A stretch of DNA of 64,000 nucleotides from Parvibaculaceae bacterium (GTDB taxonomy: Bacteria > Pseudomonadota > Alphaproteobacteria > Parvibaculales > Parvibaculaceae): assembly GCA_029209985.1 (NCBI GenBank), contig JARGNZ010000003.1, positions 32,289-96,288 on the forward strand, written 5' to 3'. The notes beneath the pieces are model-generated. The model did no database searches. It saw nothing but the letters and a program-made list of their open reading frames with translations, and was not told where the DNA came from. Made by a program: the position numbers and the translations under genes. This document shows, piece after piece, positions 2,143-52,470 of the stretch (within the stretch, counting starts at the first letter, position 1; each line of letters starts with the position of its first letter).

Positions 2143-2685
2143 TGAATAGTGGTGAATGGAACAAGATCTTAAATGTGTTCCCTTGATGTGGCGGCTTTTC
2201 CCTCTCAGGTCAAGATCAGCCCCAAAATGGTCACGATTGAAGAAACATAACCAACACCTCTCCTCCGGCCCCCTCCTCCCATCAACCAAAGGAGAGCCGG
2301 TATAAACCGCCCCCGAAATGATCGATATGAGCAACTTCTTCTAACCCAATGAGTCCATAGAGAATATGCAGGTTCACACCAGATTCGCTCAAGGTTAAGA
2401 TCAAGGGGTTAGGCCCTTTTCTGGAGTCTTTGAATGAACAAAGCCATTGCCAGTCGGCGCGCATGGAAAGCATTAGCGCAATGTTAAAGCCGCGCCTCCT
2501 AAAATAGCCGAGAGATGCTGGCGTGTTTGGCCGCTTCCCAGAGCTTCAAAACGCACAAGGTGCTTGCCTTTGACCTCTATTGGGATATTTTGCCCAAATG
2601 ACCAATGCGCCTATTTTGATCTGGAACGGCGTAGCCTTTTCCAATGTCATCTCGTTAAAAGGTGCCCGACATAAAGGACAATCAA
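2143..2685. other. 543-bp divergent intergenic region hslV/hisB
   Basis: No frame here has a recognisable protein, and no tRNA or strong hairpin is seen. It must hold the divergent promoters of hslVU and the his operon. Three GANTC sites lie close together at 2351, 2382 and 2424. It is among the longest non-coding gaps of the window. Confidence 0.6.
2186..2214 (-). promoter_or_regulatory. possible hslV promoter (sigma32-like, weak)
   Basis: Read on the minus strand, CTTGAC (2209-2214) and CCACAT (2186-2191) are separated by 17 bp, about 45 bp before the hslV start. The -35 half fits RpoH promoters, which begin with CTTG. The -10 half is a poor match to the CyTATnTnnG form seen at dnaK. Low-confidence call. 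Confidence 0.3.
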
Positions 2686-18057: not shown

Positions 18058-18081
18058 GCGGGAGGGCATAAACCCTCCCGC
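18058..18081 (-). other. intercistronic hairpin dnaK-dnaJ
   Basis: GCGGGAGGG (18058-18066) and CCCTCCCGC (18073-18081) form a perfect 9-bp G+C-rich stem with loop CATAAA, 45 bp after the dnaK stop. No U tract follows on the minus strand. It could be a partial terminator, an RNA processing site or a 3' stabiliser that sets the dnaK:dnaJ ratio. Confidence 0.6.
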
Positions 18082-18125
18082 TAACACTTCACCAACCAAC
18101 GCTTTCTAACAGCGCCGGGCCCGGT

Positions 18126-20054
18126 TTAAGACGTGCTGTCTTTTTTATCTTCGTCGTCAACTTCTTCGAAGTCGGCGTCGACGATATCTTCTGCTGCATC
18201 ACCGGTGTCGCGTGCTGCGTCTTCTGCAGCATCTTCACCTTCTTGGCCTTCACCCGCTTTATAAAGGGCTTCACCAAGTTTCATGGATGCTTCAGTCAAG
18301 GCTTGGATTTTAGCGGTGATCTCATCGCTATCGTCACCTTCAAGAGCAGCCTTCAAGTCGTCAACAGCAGCTTGTACCGGGGCTTTCACCTCGTCATCTA
18401 CTTTGTCGTCAACTTCCTCGAGCGTTTTTTCAGAAGAGTGAACCATAGCTTCACCCTGATTGCGGGCTTCCACTTGTTCACGACGCTTTTTGTCGTCATC
18501 CGCATGGGCTTCAGCGTCCTGTACCATCTGGTCGATGTCATCATCGGACAGACCGCCGGAAGCTTGAATTTGGATGGACTGCTCTTTGTTGGTTGCTTTG
18601 TCTTTAGCAGACACAGACACGATGCCGTTGGCATCAATATCAAAAGCCACTTCAATTTGCGGCACACCGCGTGGCGCCCCTGGGATACCAACAAGGTCGA
18701 ATTGACCCAATGCTTTGTTGTCGGCAGCCATTTCGCGCTCACCCTGGAAGACACGGATGGTCACAGCAGACTGATTATCTTCAGCTGTTGAGAAAACCTG
18801 TGATTTCTTCGTTGGGATTGTGGTGTTGCGATCGATCAAGCGTGTGAAGACACCGCCCAATGTTTCAATGCCCAAAGAAAGCGGCGTGACGTCGAGTAGA
18901 AGAACGTCTTTCACGTCGCCCTGTAGAACACCCGCTTGAATGGCAGCACCCATGGCCACCACTTCATCAGGGTTCACACCTTGGTGAGGCTCTTTGCCAA
19001 AGAAGTTTTTCACAGCTTCTTGTACTTTAGGCATCCGCGTCATACCACCGACCAACACAACTTCGTCGATGTCAGAGGCGTTCAAGCCCGCATCCGCAAG
19101 CGCTTTTTTGCAAGGCTCGATGGTGCGCTTGATGAGGTCTTCAACAACAGCTTCCAATTTTGCCCGCGTCAATTTCATGGTCAAGTGTTTAGGACCAGAA
19201 GAGTCAGCGGTGATGAAAGGCAGGTTGACTTCTGTTTGTGAAGAAGAAGAAAGCTCAATCTTTGCTTTCTCAGCAGCTTCTTTCAAACGCTGAAGAGCCA
19301 ACTTGTCTTTTTTCAGATCAATGCCGTTTTCTTTTTGGAATTCTTCGGCAAGATATTCGATGACCCGCATGTCGAAGTCTTCACCACCAAGGAATGTATC
19401 CCCGTTGGTAGATTTTACTTCAAACACGCCGTCGCCGATTTCCAAGATGGACACATCAAATGTACCGCCACCAAGGTCATAAACCGCAATGGTTTGGCCG
19501 TCGTTTTTGTCCAAGCCGTAAGCAAGGGCGGCAGCTGTTGGTTCGTTAATGATCCGCAAAACTTCAAGACCGGCAATCTTGCCTGCATCTTTTGTTGCTT
19601 GGCGCTGGCTATCATTAAAGTAAGCCGGAACAGTAATCACCGCTTGTGTCACTGTTTCACCAAGGAAGGTTTCCGCTGTCTCTTTCATTTTTTGCAAAAT
19701 GAAAGCGGAGACTTCTTGTGGAGAATATTTTTCGCCGCGCGCTTCAACCCAGGCATCACCATTGTCAGCTTTGACGATGTTGTAAGGCACCATCTTGGCG
19801 TCTTTTTTGGTGGTTGGGTCGTTGAAAGCACGACCGATGAGGCGCTTGATCGCGAAGAGTGTTGCTTGTGGGTTTGTTACAGCCTGCCGTTTTGCAGACT
19901 GACCAACGAGCTTTTCACCATCTTCGGTAAAGGCCACAATAGAGGGGGTGGTGCGAACGCCTTCTGCGTTCTCTACAACTTTAGGCTGGGAGCCTTCCAT
20001 GACCGAGACACACGAATTTGTCGTGCCTAGGTCAATACCGATGACTTTACCCAT
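18126..20054 (-). CDS. dnaK: molecular chaperone DnaK (Hsp70)
   Basis: DnaK is the cytoplasmic Hsp70, cycling with DnaJ and GrpE. The 642-residue protein has the ATPase signatures [34 protein letters not shown] and [14 protein letters not shown], the conserved linker region [19 protein letters not shown], a substrate domain and an acidic C-terminal tail ([12 protein letters not shown]). The start ATG is followed directly by the family N-terminus [10 protein letters not shown] near-ideal RpoH promoter lies 155-186 bp upstream; no CIRCE element is visible. Confidence 0.99.
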
Positions 20055-43696: not shown

Positions 43697-46468
43697 ATGT
43701 CAAATGTCGCTTCACATCGCCCGGCCTCCGGGCCTGCAAAATCCGCTTCCGATAAAGCTGCGGCCGTCACCCCAATGATGGCGCAATTTATGGAGATCAA
43801 ACAAGCAAACCAAGGGTCCCTGCTGTTTTATCGCATGGGGGATTTCTATGAAATGTTCTTTGATGATGCGGTGATTGCTGCCAGTGCGCTTGATATTACG
43901 CTCACGAAACGAGGCAAGCATTTAGGGGAAGATATCCCAATGTGTGGGGTGCCCGTGCATTCCGCCGATGCCTATTTGGAGCGGCTCATTCGTCAAGGAC
44001 ACCGGGTTGCCGTGTGCGAGCAAACCGAAAGCCCGGCCGAAGCTAAAAAGCGCGGGGCCAAGTCAGTTGTGCGGCGTGAAGTCGTGCGGCTTGTTACCCC
44101 CGGCACTTTAACGGAAGATACATTGCTGGATGCGCGCCAGCACAATTATTTGGCCTCTTTGGCGCGCATTGGGGCTAGCTCAAAGCTCGGTCTGTCATGG
44201 GCTGACGTTTCCACTGGCGATTTTTACGTGTGTGAAGTGGAAGTCTCAGCACTTGGGGCCGAGCTTGCCCGCCTTCGCCCCGGTGAATTGCTGGTCGCAG
44301 AAAACCTGGCTCACGAAGAGGCTGTGCAACATGCGTTGGGCGGGCGTGAGGGTGTGTTGACACCGCTACAAGCCTCTCAATTTGACAGCGCCCGCGCCGA
44401 GCGCCGTCTCAAAGATATGTTTAAGGTCGCAGCCCTTGATGCGTACGGCACATTTGCGCGCGCCGAACTGGCAGCCGCTGGCGCGTTGGTCGACTATTTA
44501 GAGCTAACCCAAGTTGGCCGCATGCCGGTGATGAAGGCCCCAAAACAAATCCGCACCGGCACAGCCATGGCGATGGATGCGGCAACCCGTGCCAACCTAG
44601 AGCTGACCCGTACCATGTCAGGGGACACCAAAGGCGCCCTGCTCGCCACATTGGACCGCACGGTCACAGGACCCGGTGCGCGGGTGTTGGCCGAACGCCT
44701 CAATGCGCCGCTCACGCAAGTCAGCCAAATCAATCGTCGCCAAGAGGCGCTCGCGTTCTTATTAGACGATGTCCCTTTGCGTGCAGACCTACGCGCCGCC
44801 CTGAAAGCTGTACCTGATATGGCCCGCGCCCTGTCGCGCCTTTCATTGGGTCGCGGGGGGCCGCGAGATTTGGCAGCAATGAAAGAGGGCCTCTATGCGG
44901 CCCATCAAATGGCCTCCCGCCTTGGCCAAGTCTCGCGCGGATCGCCGGGCACACCGCCCAATATGTTGGAGCTGCCCGAAGAACTGCAGCTCATTCATGA
45001 GGCTATCAACAATACAGCCGCGCCCTTGGTTGACCTGTTGCTCACCGCTCTAAGTTCTGACCTGCCCTTATTGGCACGCGATGGCGGGTTCATCGCAAAG
45101 GGGTATAATCCCCCGCTTGATGAGTGCCGGGCCTTGCGAGATCAAAGCCGTCAAATAGTTGCGGGGCTTCAACTTAAATACGCCGAAGAAACAGGCATCA
45201 CGGCCCTTAAAGTGAAGCATAACAATGTGCTGGGCTATCATATCGATGTGCCAGAGCGCCATGCGGCAAAGCTATTGGCAGAGCCTTATTCTGAGACCTA
45301 TATCCACCGCCAAAGCTTGGCCAGCGCGGTACGCTTCACCACTGTTGAACTCTCAGAACTGGCGACCCGCATTGCGGAGGCAGGCGGGCGCGCGCTTGCC
45401 CTTGAACAGGACCTCTTCGATCAGCTCGTAAGCGAAACGATGCAGCAAGCCCCTGTTATTGCAGAGGCGGCCGATGCCTTGGCGCAGCTAGATGTGACCG
45501 CCGCCTTAGCTGAATTGGCCCAAGAAAAACGCTACAGCCGCCCCAAAGTAGATGGCACCCTTGCCTTTGAAATTGAAGCCGGGCGCCACCCCGTTGTCGA
45601 AGCTGCGCTAGAGGCTGCAGGCCAAGGCCCCTTTGTGGCAAATGGATGTGACCTCTCAGCAGATAAGGGGGCGGCACACCGTCTTTGGTTGCTAACCGGT
45701 CCCAATATGGCGGGTAAATCAACCTTTCTGCGTCAGAATGCGCTGATCGCCATCATGGCGCAAATGGGGTCTTATGTGCCTGCCGGTCACGCGCATATTG
45801 GGGTGGTCGATCAGCTCTTTTCACGGGTTGGCGCGGCCGATGATCTGGCACGCGGCCGGTCCACCTTCATGGTCGAAATGGTCGAAACCGCTGCCATTCT
45901 CAATCAAGCAAGCCCGCATTCTTTAGTGATCCTCGATGAAATTGGGCGCGGCACCGCCACCTTTGATGGCTTGTCCATTGCGTGGGCCGCTGTCGAGCAT
46001 CTCCATGAGGTCAACGCGTGCCGATCCTTGTTCGCCACTCACTATCATGAGCTAACAAGCCTGACCGAAAAACTGCCCCATTTGGCTAATGCTACCATGA
46101 AGGTCAAAGAGTGGGAGGGCAATGTCATCTTTCTCCATGAAGTGGCCCCCGGCGCGGCAGACCGTTCTTACGGTATCCAAGTGGCCAAATTGGCGGGTCT
46201 GCCTGAGGCTGTCATCGTGCGGGCCCATGAGGTGTTGAGCGCATTGGAGGCGGGCAATGAAGGCGGGCGCACCACAGCCATTGTCGACGATCTGCCGCTT
46301 TTTTCTCTGAGCCAGGCCCAAGCCGACCCAAAGGATTCGCCCGCAGCAAAGTCAGCCGCACTGCAAGATGCTCTGCGCGAGGCGATGGATGACATTGACC
46401 CAGACAGCCTGACGCCACGCGAAGCGTTGGATGTGCTCTATGCGCTAAAGCAAAAGGCGCTCGATTAA
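43697..46468 (+). CDS. mutS: DNA mismatch repair protein MutS
   Basis: MutS recognises base mismatches and starts mismatch repair. The 923-residue protein has the mismatch-binding Phe-x-Glu in [14 protein letters not shown] at about 50-60, a connector and clamp region, and the ATPase with Walker [15 protein letters not shown] near residue 668 and signature [21 protein letters not shown] and ATHYHEL. The C-terminus includes the dimerisation segment [20 protein letters not shown]. mutS next to glnD is a conserved order in many alphaproteobacteria; mutL is not here. Confidence 0.98.
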
Positions 46469-46871
46469 GGGCAAGCCCTTCCCCAAGGCCTCACGCGGAG
46501 GCCGTCACGTCGACTCGCTGACATCAAACCCAAAGCGCCAAGTGATTCGCTCTTAGCAAAGAGTCGCCTATTCCAAAATTACGAAGAGTCCATTGGTCGC
46601 AAAGGTGAGTCTAATGGTCATAAAGAGTCTATCGAGACAAATTTCAAAGCTGCTCAATAAATGGAAATCTATTTAGTCAGGATGATTATTCTTTAAGCAT
46701 CCAAAAGCCCAAGCGAAGCATCGAGCCAGATTGGATTCACTTTTGGCAAATAAAATGCCAGAGAACCACAAAAAACCTTTGTTTTAAGGCATTTTCCCTC
46801 TCTATTAAGGCTGTTAAAGCAAAGCCATGATAAGCTGCGCTACATGTCTATCCTGATATAGAGAGAATTTC
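46469..46871. other. 403-bp mutS-glnD intergenic region
   Basis: No gene is recognised. AAGGGC-AA-GCCCTT (46467-46480) and GGCCTC-ACGCG-GAGGCC (46487-46503) are short hairpins after mutS without a U tract. A GANTC-rich repeat fills 46512-46738. A weak promoter-like pair, TTGTTT (46779) and TATTAA (46803) with 18-bp spacing, precedes glnD. The stretch is A+T-richer than its neighbours. Confidence 0.6.
46512..46738. repeat. cluster of seven GANTC sites with degenerate direct repeats
   Basis: GANTC occurs at 46512, 46544, 46561, 46586, 46607, 46625 and 46734. Four consecutive sites are GAGTC in the same orientation, 25, 21 and 18 bp apart. Two form part of a longer degenerate repeat, GAGTC-yAwTGGTCryAAA (46586-46606 and 46607-46624). 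GANTC is the target of the alphaproteobacterial cell-cycle methylase CcrM. The sites are seen; the functional role is inference. Confidence 0.7.
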
Positions 46872-49688
46872 ATGGCCCTGCGACCCGCTACCTTGAAAGA
46901 GATCATTGACGTTGAGGCGTTAGCCAAAGCCCTAGATCAGTGTGCCCAGACCCATGCCGGCAACGAGATCGAACGCCGCATGGAATTACTAGAAATTTTG
47001 AAGGGTTATCAAACCAGAGGTCGGGATCTGGCGCGGGTGCGATTGGAAGAGGGGCGGTTCAAAGGGACAGATTGTGCCGCCGCCATTTGCTACTTACAGG
47101 ATAAAATCATCTGCGCGCTTTATAACTTCGTGATCGCGCATGTCCACACCGCAGACAATCCAACCGAGGCCGAGCATTTGGCTTTGGTCGCCACGGGTGG
47201 CTATGGGCGCGGGTTGTTGGCACCAGGTTCAGACATCGACCTCCTGTTTTTGTTGCCATACAAGCAAACCCCATGGGGCGAAAACGTCGTAGAATACTGC
47301 TTGTATTTGTTGTGGGATTTGGGCCTCAAGGTCGGCCATGCAACCCGGACCGAAGACGAATGCGTCCGCCTTGCCAAAGAAGACATGACAATCCGCACCG
47401 CTTTGTTGGAAGCACGTTTTCTGCACGGGGACAAAAAACTATTCGAAAACTTTGAAGAACGATTTGCAAAAGACGTGATCAGTGGCACGGGCGCGGAGTT
47501 CGTCGAGGCCAAATTGGCAGAGCGTGACGAACGTCATGAGCGCACGGGCCGGTCCCGTTATTTGGTTGAACCCAATGTAAAAGACGGGAAGGGCGGCTTG
47601 CGTGATTTGCATACGCTCTATTGGATCGGCAAATATGTGTACGAAGCCAAAAGCGCAAAAGAGCTCGTCAAAGCCGGTCTCTTCAGCAAAGACGAGTTGA
47701 AACAATTCAACAAAGCAGAAAATTTCCTGTGGGCCATTCGCTGCGAACTGCACTTCATCACCGGGCGCGCAGAAGAGCGCATCACCTTTGATGTGCAAAC
47801 CGAAATGGCCAATCAATTAGGCTATCAATCCCACCACGGGATGAAGGGTGTTGAACGCTTCATGAAGCATTATTTCCTCATCGCCAAAGATGTGGGGGAT
47901 TTGACACGGATATTCTGCAATACCCTTGAAATGCAGGAGCAGAAGAAAAAGCCCGGCATTGGCCGCATCATGCAAGCCTTCTCGCGTAAGAAAAAAGAGA
48001 TTGAGGGCTTTGCCGTTGAGGGGGGCCGCCTAACGGTTGTGAGCAATGACACATTTGAAAAAGACCCGGTCAACATTATGCGGTTGTTTCATGTCGCCGA
48101 CCGTCACGACATTCTGATCCATCCAGATGCTTTCAAACTTTTGACCCGCTCCCTCAAGCTGGTGGCACGCCTGCGTAAGGATAAAGAAGCCAATCGGATT
48201 TTCCTTGAAATCTTATGTTCAAAACAAGATCCAGAGCGCATTTTGCGCCGCATGAATGAAACCGGTGTGTTGGGGCGTTTCATTCCAGACTTTGGCCGTA
48301 TCGTCGCGTTGATGCAGTTCAATATGTATCACCACTATACCGCCGATGAACATCTCATCCGCGCCATTGGTATCATGTCGGAAATTGATACGGGCAAAAC
48401 GGTCGACGAGCATCCTCTTGCCGTTGAGTTGATGAGTAACATTTCAAGCCGTGCGGTTGTCTTCATGTCTGTGCTGCTGCACGATATTGCAAAGGGGCGC
48501 CCAGAAGATCATTCCGAAGCCGGTGCCAAGATTGCAAGCCGCTTGTGCCCACGGTTGGGCATGTCAAAATCGGAAACTGAATCCGTTGCTTGGCTGGTAA
48601 AAAATCACTTGGTTATGTCAGACGTGGCCCAGCGGCGCGACCTTTCAGATCCTAAAACAATTCAGGACTTTGTCAGAGTGGTGCAAAGTCGGGAGCGTTT
48701 GAAATACCTTTACCTCCTTACTGTCGTCGACATTAAGGCGGTGGGTCCCGGTGTCTTCAATGGTTGGAAAGACCAGCTGTTGCGTCAGCTTTATTTTGAA
48801 GCCAATACGTTATTGCAAGGCGGCAATACGACGATCAACCGCACCCAGCGCGCCAATCATGCCAAGGCTGAATTTATTGATCGCATTCAAGATTGGGATC
48901 CAAAAGAACGCGAAGACTATCTAGCGCGCCACATGAATGCCTATTGGTTAGGGTATGACCAAGATTCATTTGTGCGCCATGCCGAACTCATCCGAAATTG
49001 CGACGAAAGCGAAGAGGGGCTTGTGGTTTCTGCGGTTGTCAATGAAGCCCGCGAGGCCACCGAGATCACACTCTTCACACAAGATCACCCCGGCCTCTTT
49101 TCTCGTTTTGCCGGGGCCTGTGCGGCAGCGGGTGTGGAAATTTTGGAAGCAAAAATTTTCACCACGCGGGACGGCATGGCACTTGATACATTGTGGGTCC
49201 ATGATCCCGATGTCGGGGCGATTGAAGAAGGGCGGCGCACCGATCGTTTAGAAGATATGATCCGCAAAGTGTTGGCCGGGGAGGTACTCCCACCTGATTT
49301 GATCGAAAGTCGCACGCGCCGCAAACCGTTGCTGGAAGCCTTCAATTTCGAGCCGCACGTATATATTGATAATGCGGCATCGGATAAATACTCGGTCATT
49401 GAAGTCAACGGTTTGGATCGGCCCGGATTGCTCCATGCGCTAACCCGTACCTTGTTCCATCTGGGTCTCACAATTTCCTCCTCTCTCGTCACAACATATG
49501 GTGAGCGGGCGGTGGATGTGTTCTATGTGGCAGACTTGATGGGGGCCAAAATCACCAATGCTGCCAAACGCCGTTCCATTGAAAGACAGCTTTTGGAAGC
49601 ATTGGCGGACCCGATGAAAAAGTCGCGGCCCAAAAAAGCTTCCACGGCCAAAACGCCCAAAACGACAAAAAAGAGATTCAGCGCATAG
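46872..49688 (+). CDS. glnD: [protein-PII] uridylyltransferase GlnD
   Basis: GlnD senses glutamine and uridylylates or de-uridylylates PII proteins to control nitrogen assimilation. The 938-residue protein has a nucleotidyltransferase domain with GGYGRGLLAPGSDIDLLFLLP at about 113-133 (split here), a PII-uridylyltransferase helical region, an HD hydrolase domain with LLHDIAKGRPEDHS near 535, and two C-terminal ACT domains (about 725-800 and 835-905). The tail is Lys-rich and low-complexity. murJ starts 35 bp downstream, suggesting co-transcription. Confidence 0.97.
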   Translation: MALRPATLKEIIDVEALAKALDQCAQTHAGNEIERRMELLEILKGYQTRGRDLARVRLEEGRFKGTDCAAAICYLQDKIICALYNFVIAHVHTADNPTEAEHLALVATGGYGRGLLAPGSDIDLLFLLPYKQTPWGENVVEYCLYLLWDLGLKVGHATRTEDECVRLAKEDMTIRTALLEARFLHGDKKLFENFEERFAKDVISGTGAEFVEAKLAERDERHERTGRSRYLVEPNVKDGKGGLRDLHTLYWIGKYVYEAKSAKELVKAGLFSKDELKQFNKAENFLWAIRCELHFITGRAEERITFDVQTEMANQLGYQSHHGMKGVERFMKHYFLIAKDVGDLTRIFCNTLEMQEQKKKPGIGRIMQAFSRKKKEIEGFAVEGGRLTVVSNDTFEKDPVNIMRLFHVADRHDILIHPDAFKLLTRSLKLVARLRKDKEANRIFLEILCSKQDPERILRRMNETGVLGRFIPDFGRIVALMQFNMYHHYTADEHLIRAIGIMSEIDTGKTVDEHPLAVELMSNISSRAVVFMSVLLHDIAKGRPEDHSEAGAKIASRLCPRLGMSKSETESVAWLVKNHLVMSDVAQRRDLSDPKTIQDFVRVVQSRERLKYLYLLTVVDIKAVGPGVFNGWKDQLLRQLYFEANTLLQGGNTTINRTQRANHAKAEFIDRIQDWDPKEREDYLARHMNAYWLGYDQDSFVRHAELIRNCDESEEGLVVSAVVNEAREATEITLFTQDHPGLFSRFAGACAAAGVEILEAKIFTTRDGMALDTLWVHDPDVGAIEEGRRTDRLEDMIRKVLAGEVLPPDLIESRTRRKPLLEAFNFEPHVYIDNAASDKYSVIEVNGLDRPGLLHALTRTLFHLGLTISSSLVTTYGERAVDVFYVADLMGAKITNAAKRRSIERQLLEALADPMKKSRPKKASTAKTPKTTKKRFSA

Positions 49689-49723: not shown

Positions 49724-51328
49724 ATGAACCTTGTCCGTTCCGCCACCACCGTGGGTGGCATGACCATGATTTCCCGTGTGATGGGCTTTCTGCGTGACAT
49801 CCTCATTGCAGGCGTGTTAGGCGCAGGCCCGATTGCGGACGCGTTTTTTGTCGCTTTTCGGTTTCCCAACCTCTTTCGTCGATTGTTTGCCGAAGGCGCT
49901 TTTAATGCGGCCTTTGTTCCACTGTTTGCACGGGAACTCGAAGCAGGCGGGGAGGCGGCTGCGCGTAATTTTGCGCAGGAAGCATTGTCCGTGCTTCTGA
50001 CAACATTGCTTTTATTTACACTGCTAGCGGAAATATCGATGCCGTGGTTGATGTTCGCCATCGCACCGGGTTTTGCAGAGCTGCCCCAAAGTTTTGATGC
50101 CGGGTATATCACCTATGTGTTGACCCTCAATGGTGGCGACATGCCTGCCAAATATGATCTAGCGGTCTTCTTCACACGCATCGCGTTTCCCTATCTTCTG
50201 TTCATGTCGCTCACCGCTCTCTTGTCTGGGGTGCTCAATTCACTAGGTCGGTTTTTGGCGGCTGCCGCTGCCCCCATTTTGCTGAATATCATTTTGGTCA
50301 GCGCAATGTTGGTCGCCGTGCCCTTTTTTGATAATCCCGGATTTGTTTTGGCATGGGGTGTGGCCGTGGCGGGGGCGGCACAGTTTTTTATGCTGCTCAT
50401 GGCCACCCGCCGCGCAGGCTTTCATCTGCATTTAAGTCGCCCTCGGCTCACTCCCAAGGTGCGTCGTCTTATTCGTTTGGGCATTCCCGGTGTCATTTCT
50501 GGCGGTGTCACACAGCTCAACATTTTGGTGGGCACCATCATTGCGTCTTTACAAGCAGGGGCGGTGTCTTGGCTTTATTATGCGGACCGTATTTACCAGT
50601 TGCCTTTGGGTGTGGTGGGCATTGCGATCGGCATTGTTCTATTGCCCGACTTATCGCGTCGGTTGCGCTCCGGTGATCAGGGCGGCGCGTTAAGTGTGCA
50701 AAACCGTTCCTTTGAATTTGCCATGTTGTTGACATTGCCCGCCGCAGTTGCGCTCGCCATCATTCCAACCCCCATTATTTCGGTCTTGTTTGAACGCGGC
50801 GCCTTTTCTGCAGCGGACACACACGCCACCGCACTTGCCCTATCGGCCTATGCTTTTGGTTTGCCGGCCTTTGTGCTCAGTAAGGTTTTCTCTCCCGGCT
50901 TTTTTGCCCGCGAAGACACGGCAACGCCCATGCGCTATGCGCTGATTTCCATCGGCGTCAATATCTTGCTTTCTATTGTGCTGTTTCAATGGCTCGGCTT
51001 TTTCGGCATTGCCCTCGCCACCACATTGGCCGCTTGGCTAAACACCGGGTTGCTCGGCGCTCGCCTCATGGCACTTGATCACTTCAAAGCAGACGCCCGC
51101 CTGCGTAAACGTGTGCCCCTCATATTGTTGGCAGCCTTGTTAATGGGGGCAAGCCTATGGGGGACCGCTTGGCTTCTGGAGCCATGGTTGCAAAGCAGCT
51201 TTGGCTTACAAGTGACGGCGCTCACCATATTAGTAACAGGCGGCATGGTCGTCTTTGCCGCTTTCTGTTTGCTCACAGGTGCCATAAGCCTGTCAGAATT
51301 CAAAGGCGGCTTCCGGCGTAAGGCCTAG
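49724..51328 (+). CDS. murJ: lipid II flippase MurJ (MviN)
   Basis: MurJ moves lipid II across the inner membrane for peptidoglycan assembly. The 534-residue protein has about 14 membrane helices and begins with the family segment TVGGMTMISRVMGFLRDILIAGVLGAG, followed by FRFPNLFRRLFAEGAFNAAFVP and, further on, LPLGVVGIAIGIVLLPDLSR. glnD-murJ-trpS is a conserved alphaproteobacterial order. Confidence 0.97.
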   Translation: MNLVRSATTVGGMTMISRVMGFLRDILIAGVLGAGPIADAFFVAFRFPNLFRRLFAEGAFNAAFVPLFARELEAGGEAAARNFAQEALSVLLTTLLLFTLLAEISMPWLMFAIAPGFAELPQSFDAGYITYVLTLNGGDMPAKYDLAVFFTRIAFPYLLFMSLTALLSGVLNSLGRFLAAAAAPILLNIILVSAMLVAVPFFDNPGFVLAWGVAVAGAAQFFMLLMATRRAGFHLHLSRPRLTPKVRRLIRLGIPGVISGGVTQLNILVGTIIASLQAGAVSWLYYADRIYQLPLGVVGIAIGIVLLPDLSRRLRSGDQGGALSVQNRSFEFAMLLTLPAAVALAIIPTPIISVLFERGAFSAADTHATALALSAYAFGLPAFVLSKVFSPGFFAREDTATPMRYALISIGVNILLSIVLFQWLGFFGIALATTLAAWLNTGLLGARLMALDHFKADARLRKRVPLILLAALLMGASLWGTAWLLEPWLQSSFGLQVTALTILVTGGMVVFAAFCLLTGAISLSEFKGGFRRKA

Positions 51329-51420: not shown

Positions 51421-51453
51421 CGGAGCTTTAGGTGAGTGGATAGGATTAAAGAT

Positions 51454-52470
51454 ATGACGATGCCAACCAATCGAGTTTTCTCTGGTGTTCAGCCGACCGG
51501 TAATCTCCATTTGGGGAATTATCTGGGCGCGATCCGTCACTTTGTGGGCTTGCAAAAAACCCATCAATGTCTTTATTGCGTGGTGGATATGCACGCCATC
51601 ACCGTATGGCAAGATCCAAAGGAATTGGCGCACAACACCCGCGAAGTTGCAGCCGCTTACATTGCGGCGGGCATCAATCCCAAAGAGCACATTATCTTTA
51701 ATCAATCCAAAGTCTCTGCGCATGCAGAACTGGCGTGGGTGCTCAATTGCGTTGGGCGCATGGGGTGGTTAAGCCGCATGACCCAGTTCAAAGAAAAAGC
51801 AGGCAAGCATAAAGAGAACGCCTCTGTTGGTTTGTTCACCTACCCGGTGTTGATGGCCGCTGACATTTTGATCTACCGCGCCACGCATGTGCCGGTGGGC
51901 GATGATCAAAAACAGCACTTGGAGCTTGCGCGCGACATCGCTCAAAAGTTCAATAACGACTTTTCAGGGAACGGGTCTGAGGGTTTTTTCCCAGCACCAG
52001 AACCTCTGATCATGGGAGCTGCCACCCGCGTGATGTCTTTGCGGGACGGGAGCAAAAAAATGTCCAAGTCCGATCCCTCAGCCATGTCACGGATCACTTT
52101 GACCGATACAGTTGATGACATTGCCAAAAAGATCAAAAAGGCAAAAACGGATATGGAGCCGATTCCAGAAACCGCAGAAGGCCTCAAAGAGCGTCCAGAA
52201 GCAGACAATCTGGTAGGCATTTTTGCCGCCCTGTCCGGCCAAACCAAAGACGACGTTTTGGCGGATTTTGCGGGCCAAGGGTTTGGTGCCTTTAAGCCAA
52301 AGTTGGCGGAACTGGCGATCGAAAAGCTTTCCCCCATCACGGGAGAAATGGCGCGGCTGATGGATGATCCTGCAGAAATCGATCGCATTTTGGCGGATGG
52401 CGCAGAGCGGGCAAGTGCCCTTGCCCAGCCTGTGTTGGCGGAAGTTAAAAAGATTGTTGGCTTCGTTTAA
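51454..52470 (+). CDS. trpS: tryptophan--tRNA ligase TrpS
   Basis: TrpS charges tRNA-Trp. The 338-residue class I synthetase has [18 protein letters not shown] (HxGN form of the HIGH motif), [24 protein letters not shown] and the KMSKS loop [18 protein letters not shown] lies eight bases before the ATG at 51454; a GTG six codons upstream and an ATG two codons downstream are also open. Confidence 0.97.

Follow-up and report, generated by a model that had tools for sequence, protein, structure and literature searches.

The window, by which we mean the whole stretch of 64,000 nucleotides that was analysed, carries mutS, glnD, murJ and trpS in succession on one strand (Table 1). The tryptophan (W) assignment of the last of these is that of the initial annotation, and it agrees with the gene order. 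Between the mutS stop codon at 46468 and the glnD ATG at 46872 lies a non-coding gap that contains seven copies of the methylation motif GANTC, and the 227 bp from 46512 to 46738 thus hold 7 of the 53 GANTC sites of the window. The initial annotation had reported these seven sites upstream of glnD, four of them in the form GAGTC (46561, 46586, 46607 and 46625) at spacings of 25, 21 and 18 bp, with part of the cluster inside a longer degenerate direct repeat. All seven sites, the common orientation of the four GAGTC and all three spacings proved to be correct, and Tandem Repeats Finder recovered the repeat as a 21-bp unit in 1.9 copies.

Table 1. Genes and sequence features at the mutS-glnD locus (positions in the window)
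Feature	Position	Strand	Details
mutS	43697..46468	+	NF003810; upstream of glnD, same strand
mutS-glnD intergenic region	46469..46871		403 bp; 43% GC (window, 52.6%)
GANTC site 1	46512..46516		GACTC in CGACTCG; fits YGAKTCK on the - strand
GANTC site 2	46544..46548		GATTC in TGATTCGC; fits YGAKTCK
GANTC site 3	46561..46565		GAGTC in AGAGTCG; missing from G001
GANTC site 4	46586..46590		GAGTC; unit 1 of the 21-bp direct repeat; kept in G001
Degenerate direct repeat	46586..46625	+	unit GAGTCYAWTGGTCRYAAA, period 21, 1.9 copies (Tandem Repeats Finder)
GANTC site 5	46607..46611		TGAGTCT, fits YGAKTCK; repeat unit 2; GAGAC in G001
GANTC site 6	46625..46629		GAGTC in AAAGAGTC; kept in G001
GANTC site 7	46734..46738		GATTC in GGATTCAC; 138 bp before glnD; kept in G001
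Proposed proximal glnD promoter	46805..46840	+	TTAAGG-N17-TGATAA then GCTGCGC
glnD, [protein-PII] uridylyltransferase	46872..49688	+	NF003467, 1385 bits
murJ, lipid II flippase	49724..51328	+	PF03023
trpS, class I tRNA synthetase (W/Y family)	51436..52470	+	PF00579

Across the window as a whole GANTC is scarce, since the 53 sites observed compare with 211 in dinucleotide shuffles, a four-fold depletion that bears out the under-representation anticipated for a genome with CcrM. In CcrM bacteria the motif is under-represented overall and over-represented between genes (PMC3973325). The genome-wide view was obtained from a whole-genome triplet scan together with a 455-kb sample of the genome, composed of 175 kb of the window's contig and parts of three other contigs. 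In this sample, in which genes were called by crude choices among ORFs, GANTC occurs at 0.81/kb in coding and 2.51/kb in intergenic DNA, and the mutS-glnD gap ranks first of 209 intergenic regions. Shuffling of the intergenic region itself gave a mean of 1.9 sites, with a probability of 0.0016 for at least seven. At the intergenic rate of 2.5/kb the Poisson probability is 6e-5 for the 403-bp gap and 1.6e-6 for the 227-bp stretch, the former value rising to about 1e-2 once multiplied by the 209 gaps. The whole-genome scan for three GANTC with short gaps returned 23 triplets, four consecutive ones of which are the glnD cluster. This is the only place with four overlapping triplets (six sites in 118 bp), two at most being found elsewhere, and the scan revealed no denser chain. 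The density of the glnD cluster is beyond chance, and the seven sites are not ordinary at the genome-wide density that the initial annotation had proposed as the yardstick.

The relatives of its GlnD protein placed the genome (G000) in the Parvibaculaceae, and its genus, g1, contains one other genome (G001; 91% GlnD identity). Five of the GANTC sites are kept in G001, where site 1 (CGACTCGCT) recurs at a near-equal distance to glnD. In the alignment with G001 the fixed GANTC bases match at 23 of 28 positions, compared with 221 of 375 other positions (p=0.011), and a cruder test of whole sites gave 4/7 (p=0.03); both tests are slightly conservative since the aligner misplaces the shared CGACTCGCT site. 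Within genus g3, six of seven species have five or six sites and the seventh has three. The site 2 sequence GATTCGC is kept in this genus as well as in G001, and a GANTC at -138 to -141, comparable to site 7, is present in most g3 species. Fixed GANTC positions are invariant at 16 of 20 across the seven g3 species, as against 81 of 310 others (p=2e-6), a value that, like the other conservation p-values, is optimistic to the extent that the species are not independent. The central N is likewise conserved in g3. In both of two complete g3 genomes the glnD region is the top GANTC cluster of 400 kb, and it ranks first among the upstream regions of 66-70 ortholog pairs. Genus g4, of the same clade, retains two sites, with a sequence (GACTCGCT) that resembles site 1 (CGACTCGCT). 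The expectation that the sites would recur in close relatives was thus borne out (five in G001, three to six in g3 and two in g4). Parvibaculum (g5) and g2 have 0 to 2 sites upstream of glnD, and no enrichment at this position was found in Parvibaculum or other Alphaproteobacteria; a general alphaproteobacterial trait was rejected, as the mean number of GANTC in the 400 bp upstream of glnD at 71 other loci is 0.69, compared with 0.50 expected. The GlnD tree unites g1, g3 and g4, the genera with the cluster or a remnant of it (support 89/87), which is most simply read as a single origin or as a loss in the other clade. Judged by these comparisons of sequence, the glnD cluster is conserved and selected in one clade of the Parvibaculaceae. 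A separate feature was observed in g3 species, in which a 15-bp palindrome, CTTAAC-ATG-GTTAAG, lies directly past the cluster, about 248 bp before glnD (loci L087, L088, L097 and L085). It carries the CtrA-type half-site TTAACCAT on the - strand in four of five g3 species scanned, and it is absent from the window's genus.

The presence of ccrM, on which the initial annotation had made its proposal depend, was established, as the genome encodes one CcrM. The single PF01555 match is a CcrM-like methylase with a RAMA domain, which scores 635 bits against NF050803, under the 830-bit cut-off of a model whose cut-off was set on Caulobacter-type CcrM. GcrA is also encoded (PF07750, 178.5 bits). The Caulobacter GcrA motif YGAKTCK fits three of the seven window sites and one in G001; Brevundimonas GcrA shows no preference for YGAKTCK (PMC7987155). 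The clusters nearest in size to that of glnD lie upstream of ccrM and at ftsA-ftsZ. Upstream of ccrM there are five GANTC and a perfect CtrA motif, TTAA-N7-TTAA (L176:1380-1560; G000:C34 near 44496-44677), and in two g3 genomes this region is clustered too. Seven GANTC and a TTAACCAT site are spread over the ftsA 3' end and the gap between ftsA and ftsZ (L177:1330-1725; G000:C37 near 18063-18301). In Caulobacter, ftsZ and mipZ are activated by CcrM, and ftsZ is an established CcrM target (PMC3708114). The company of ccrM and ftsA-ftsZ supports a CcrM-linked regulatory role; no other indirect evidence argues as strongly that regions of dense GANTC in this genome are under CcrM control. Smaller clusters occur near a DivIC-family division gene, parB and hisB. 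Three GANTC (2351, 2382 and 2424) lie in the gap upstream of hisB (window 2335-2661), and the orthologous gaps of two g3 genomes have five each; three more mark the beginning of a DivIC-family division gene of 108 aa beside an eno-like gene (L170:1199-1544). Four precede a parB-family gene (L185:9580-9821; G000:C49), and both g3 genomes have four in the orthologous gap too.

A scan of the mutS-glnD region for consensus sigma-70 promoters found none. The likeliest proximal glnD promoter is the candidate listed in Table 1, a GANTC-free block conserved with G001. Seen from this putative promoter, the cluster occupies the stretch 67-290 bp upstream, and all of its seven sites but one are at a distance of at least about 175 bp. 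The classical GcrA arrangement places a methylated site in the core promoter; the predicted promoter does not show it, and the cluster more likely serves a distal promoter or forms an upstream regulatory array. Two known systems offer comparisons. The gcrA promoter of Agrobacterium tumefaciens has six GANTC in 250 bp and is less active if methylated (PMC11514494); it resembles the present region in its dense GANTC upstream of one gene, in the presence of CcrM and in a similar order of density. However, gcrA encodes a cell-cycle regulator and its repression by methylation was measured, whereas here the gene is glnD and the regulation is predicted from sequence. The ftsZ and mipZ promoters of Caulobacter crescentus likewise have conserved GANTC, including CGACTC, in a CcrM bacterium, and site 1 here reads CGACTCG; in those promoters, however, a critical motif upstream of a mapped start activates, whereas here there are seven sites, mostly far upstream of the putative promoter. 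Since methylation lowers the activity of the Agrobacterium gcrA promoter and raises that of Caulobacter ftsZ, the sign of its effect at glnD could be either.

Origin-proximal GANTC sites are those hemimethylated longest in CcrM bacteria (PMC11514494). On the same contig, about 55 kb from the cluster and outside the window, the hemE-ppsR gap (L186:3207-3766; G000:C49:23207-23766) is the likely oriC: it spans 560 bp at 41% GC and contains two perfect and four near DnaA boxes and four GANTC, with a PF03618 kinase/pyrophosphorylase gene on the ppsR side. With oriC at that distance, the glnD cluster would be replicated early. In two complete relatives (G010 and G003) the GC-skew minimum lies about 65 kb upstream of glnD, and noise in the local skew of the window's contig prevents a minimum from being placed there.

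The oriC of E. coli is marked by a cluster of GATC, methylation sites near the replication origin. The mutS-glnD region resembles it as a cluster of methylation sites near an origin, and being AT-rich as well it could be imagined to serve as an origin or an element that controls initiation. However, the methylase is a different one, no DnaA box within one mismatch occurs in the glnD region of the window's genus, the skew minimum of the two complete relatives falls elsewhere, and the boxes that are missing here are present in the hemE-ppsR gap; the glnD region was rejected as oriC, and a role of this kind is very improbable. Only slightly less remote is a neutral accumulation of sites in an AT-rich spacer that tolerates GANTC, inflated by short tandem duplication. 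Such a history would suit an intergenic GANTC rate three times that of coding DNA and the presence of three GAGTC sites in or beside the 21-bp repeat, but it is disfavoured by the first rank among the 209 gaps, by the ranking among ortholog pairs and by the over-conservation of the fixed bases, the sites being retained in two genera.

The conserved element might instead serve as a set of sites that bind a different protein, such as a MucR-like or dedicated regulator, whose motif happens to include GANTC, so that methylation would be incidental or blocked. In g3 conservation extends to the flanks and to the central base (GATTCGC twice, AGAATCT and GAGTCAGGC), and conservation of the central N is what a sequence-specific protein could explain; the TTAACCAT half-site within the g3 palindrome and the repeated 18-21 bp unit that holds the sites in the window's genus point in the same direction. 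Moreover, MucR binds some unmethylated GANTC in Caulobacter (cited in PMC7987155). However, the flanks differ between g1 and g3 while the GANTC count stays high, which suggests selection on GANTC itself, and the remaining dense clusters fall at ccrM and ftsA-ftsZ. We consider this alternative unlikely, and yet the most serious of those weighed here. Somewhat less probable again is that the cluster controls a separate transcript, either a small RNA or a long alternative glnD leader, that starts in the intergenic region. The distance of 67-290 bp between the cluster and the likeliest glnD promoter would be in keeping with such a transcript, as would the g3 conserved block, which similarly lies at about -310 to -165. 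Against it, the region was found to contain no promoter-like match and no terminator downstream of the GANTC cluster. A known RNA family was rejected, as Rfam has none in the region, as were a hidden ORF, there being none over 37 aa, and a conserved RNA fold, for which the covariation term was unfavourable. DNA comparison found no plasmid relatives.

The interpretation that we favour, with somewhat better than even confidence, is that the mutS-glnD region works as a cis-regulatory element dense in CcrM sites, selected in one Parvibaculaceae clade, that would modulate glnD-murJ-trpS through methylation; the region upstream of glnD is probably a methylation-sensitive control region. As proposed, the sites would be methylated by CcrM late in the cell cycle, and the replication fork would pass the locus shortly after initiation, leaving it hemimethylated through most of S phase. 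Its state of methylation may in turn affect how GcrA, RNA polymerase or another regulator binds, and thereby modulate transcription toward glnD-murJ-trpS. The best working model would be the Agrobacterium gcrA promoter, where full methylation lowers activity and fork passage relieves it; the direction of the effect at glnD is a guess. It counts against CcrM control that 67 bp separate the cluster from the putative proximal promoter downstream and that YGAKTCK fits only three of the seven sites and none in any g3 species scanned. In addition, most Brevundimonas orthologs of Caulobacter CcrM targets that have a promoter GANTC do not respond to the loss of CcrM (PMC7987155). It counts in favour that promoters in which GANTC is conserved are misregulated more often when CcrM is missing (PMC3973325). 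A literature search found no CcrM or GcrA control of glnD and no joint mention of GcrA, GANTC and glnD, while CcrM and glnD occur together, in the literature searched, only in a sulfate-reducer methylome and an annotation resource.

The timing of glnD-murJ-trpS by hemimethylation of the cluster, as put forward in the initial annotation, is plausible. A more specific proposal, which we regard as tentative and rather doubtful, is that the seven GANTC, arrayed near the origin, serve as a hemimethylation timer that would couple PII uridylylation (nitrogen sensing) and lipid II flipping to replication in one Parvibaculaceae clade, the CcrM/GcrA circuit having been rewired to a nitrogen regulator. 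GcrA/CcrM targets have been rewired between relatives (PMC7987155). Dense GANTC clusters have already been described at cell-cycle genes, and here the densest one found sits before a nitrogen-sensing gene. Since the cluster is retained by selection in one clade and absent from Parvibaculum, it offers a natural comparison for the rewiring of a CcrM circuit to new genes, and it may connect nitrogen status with replication in a way that can be tested.
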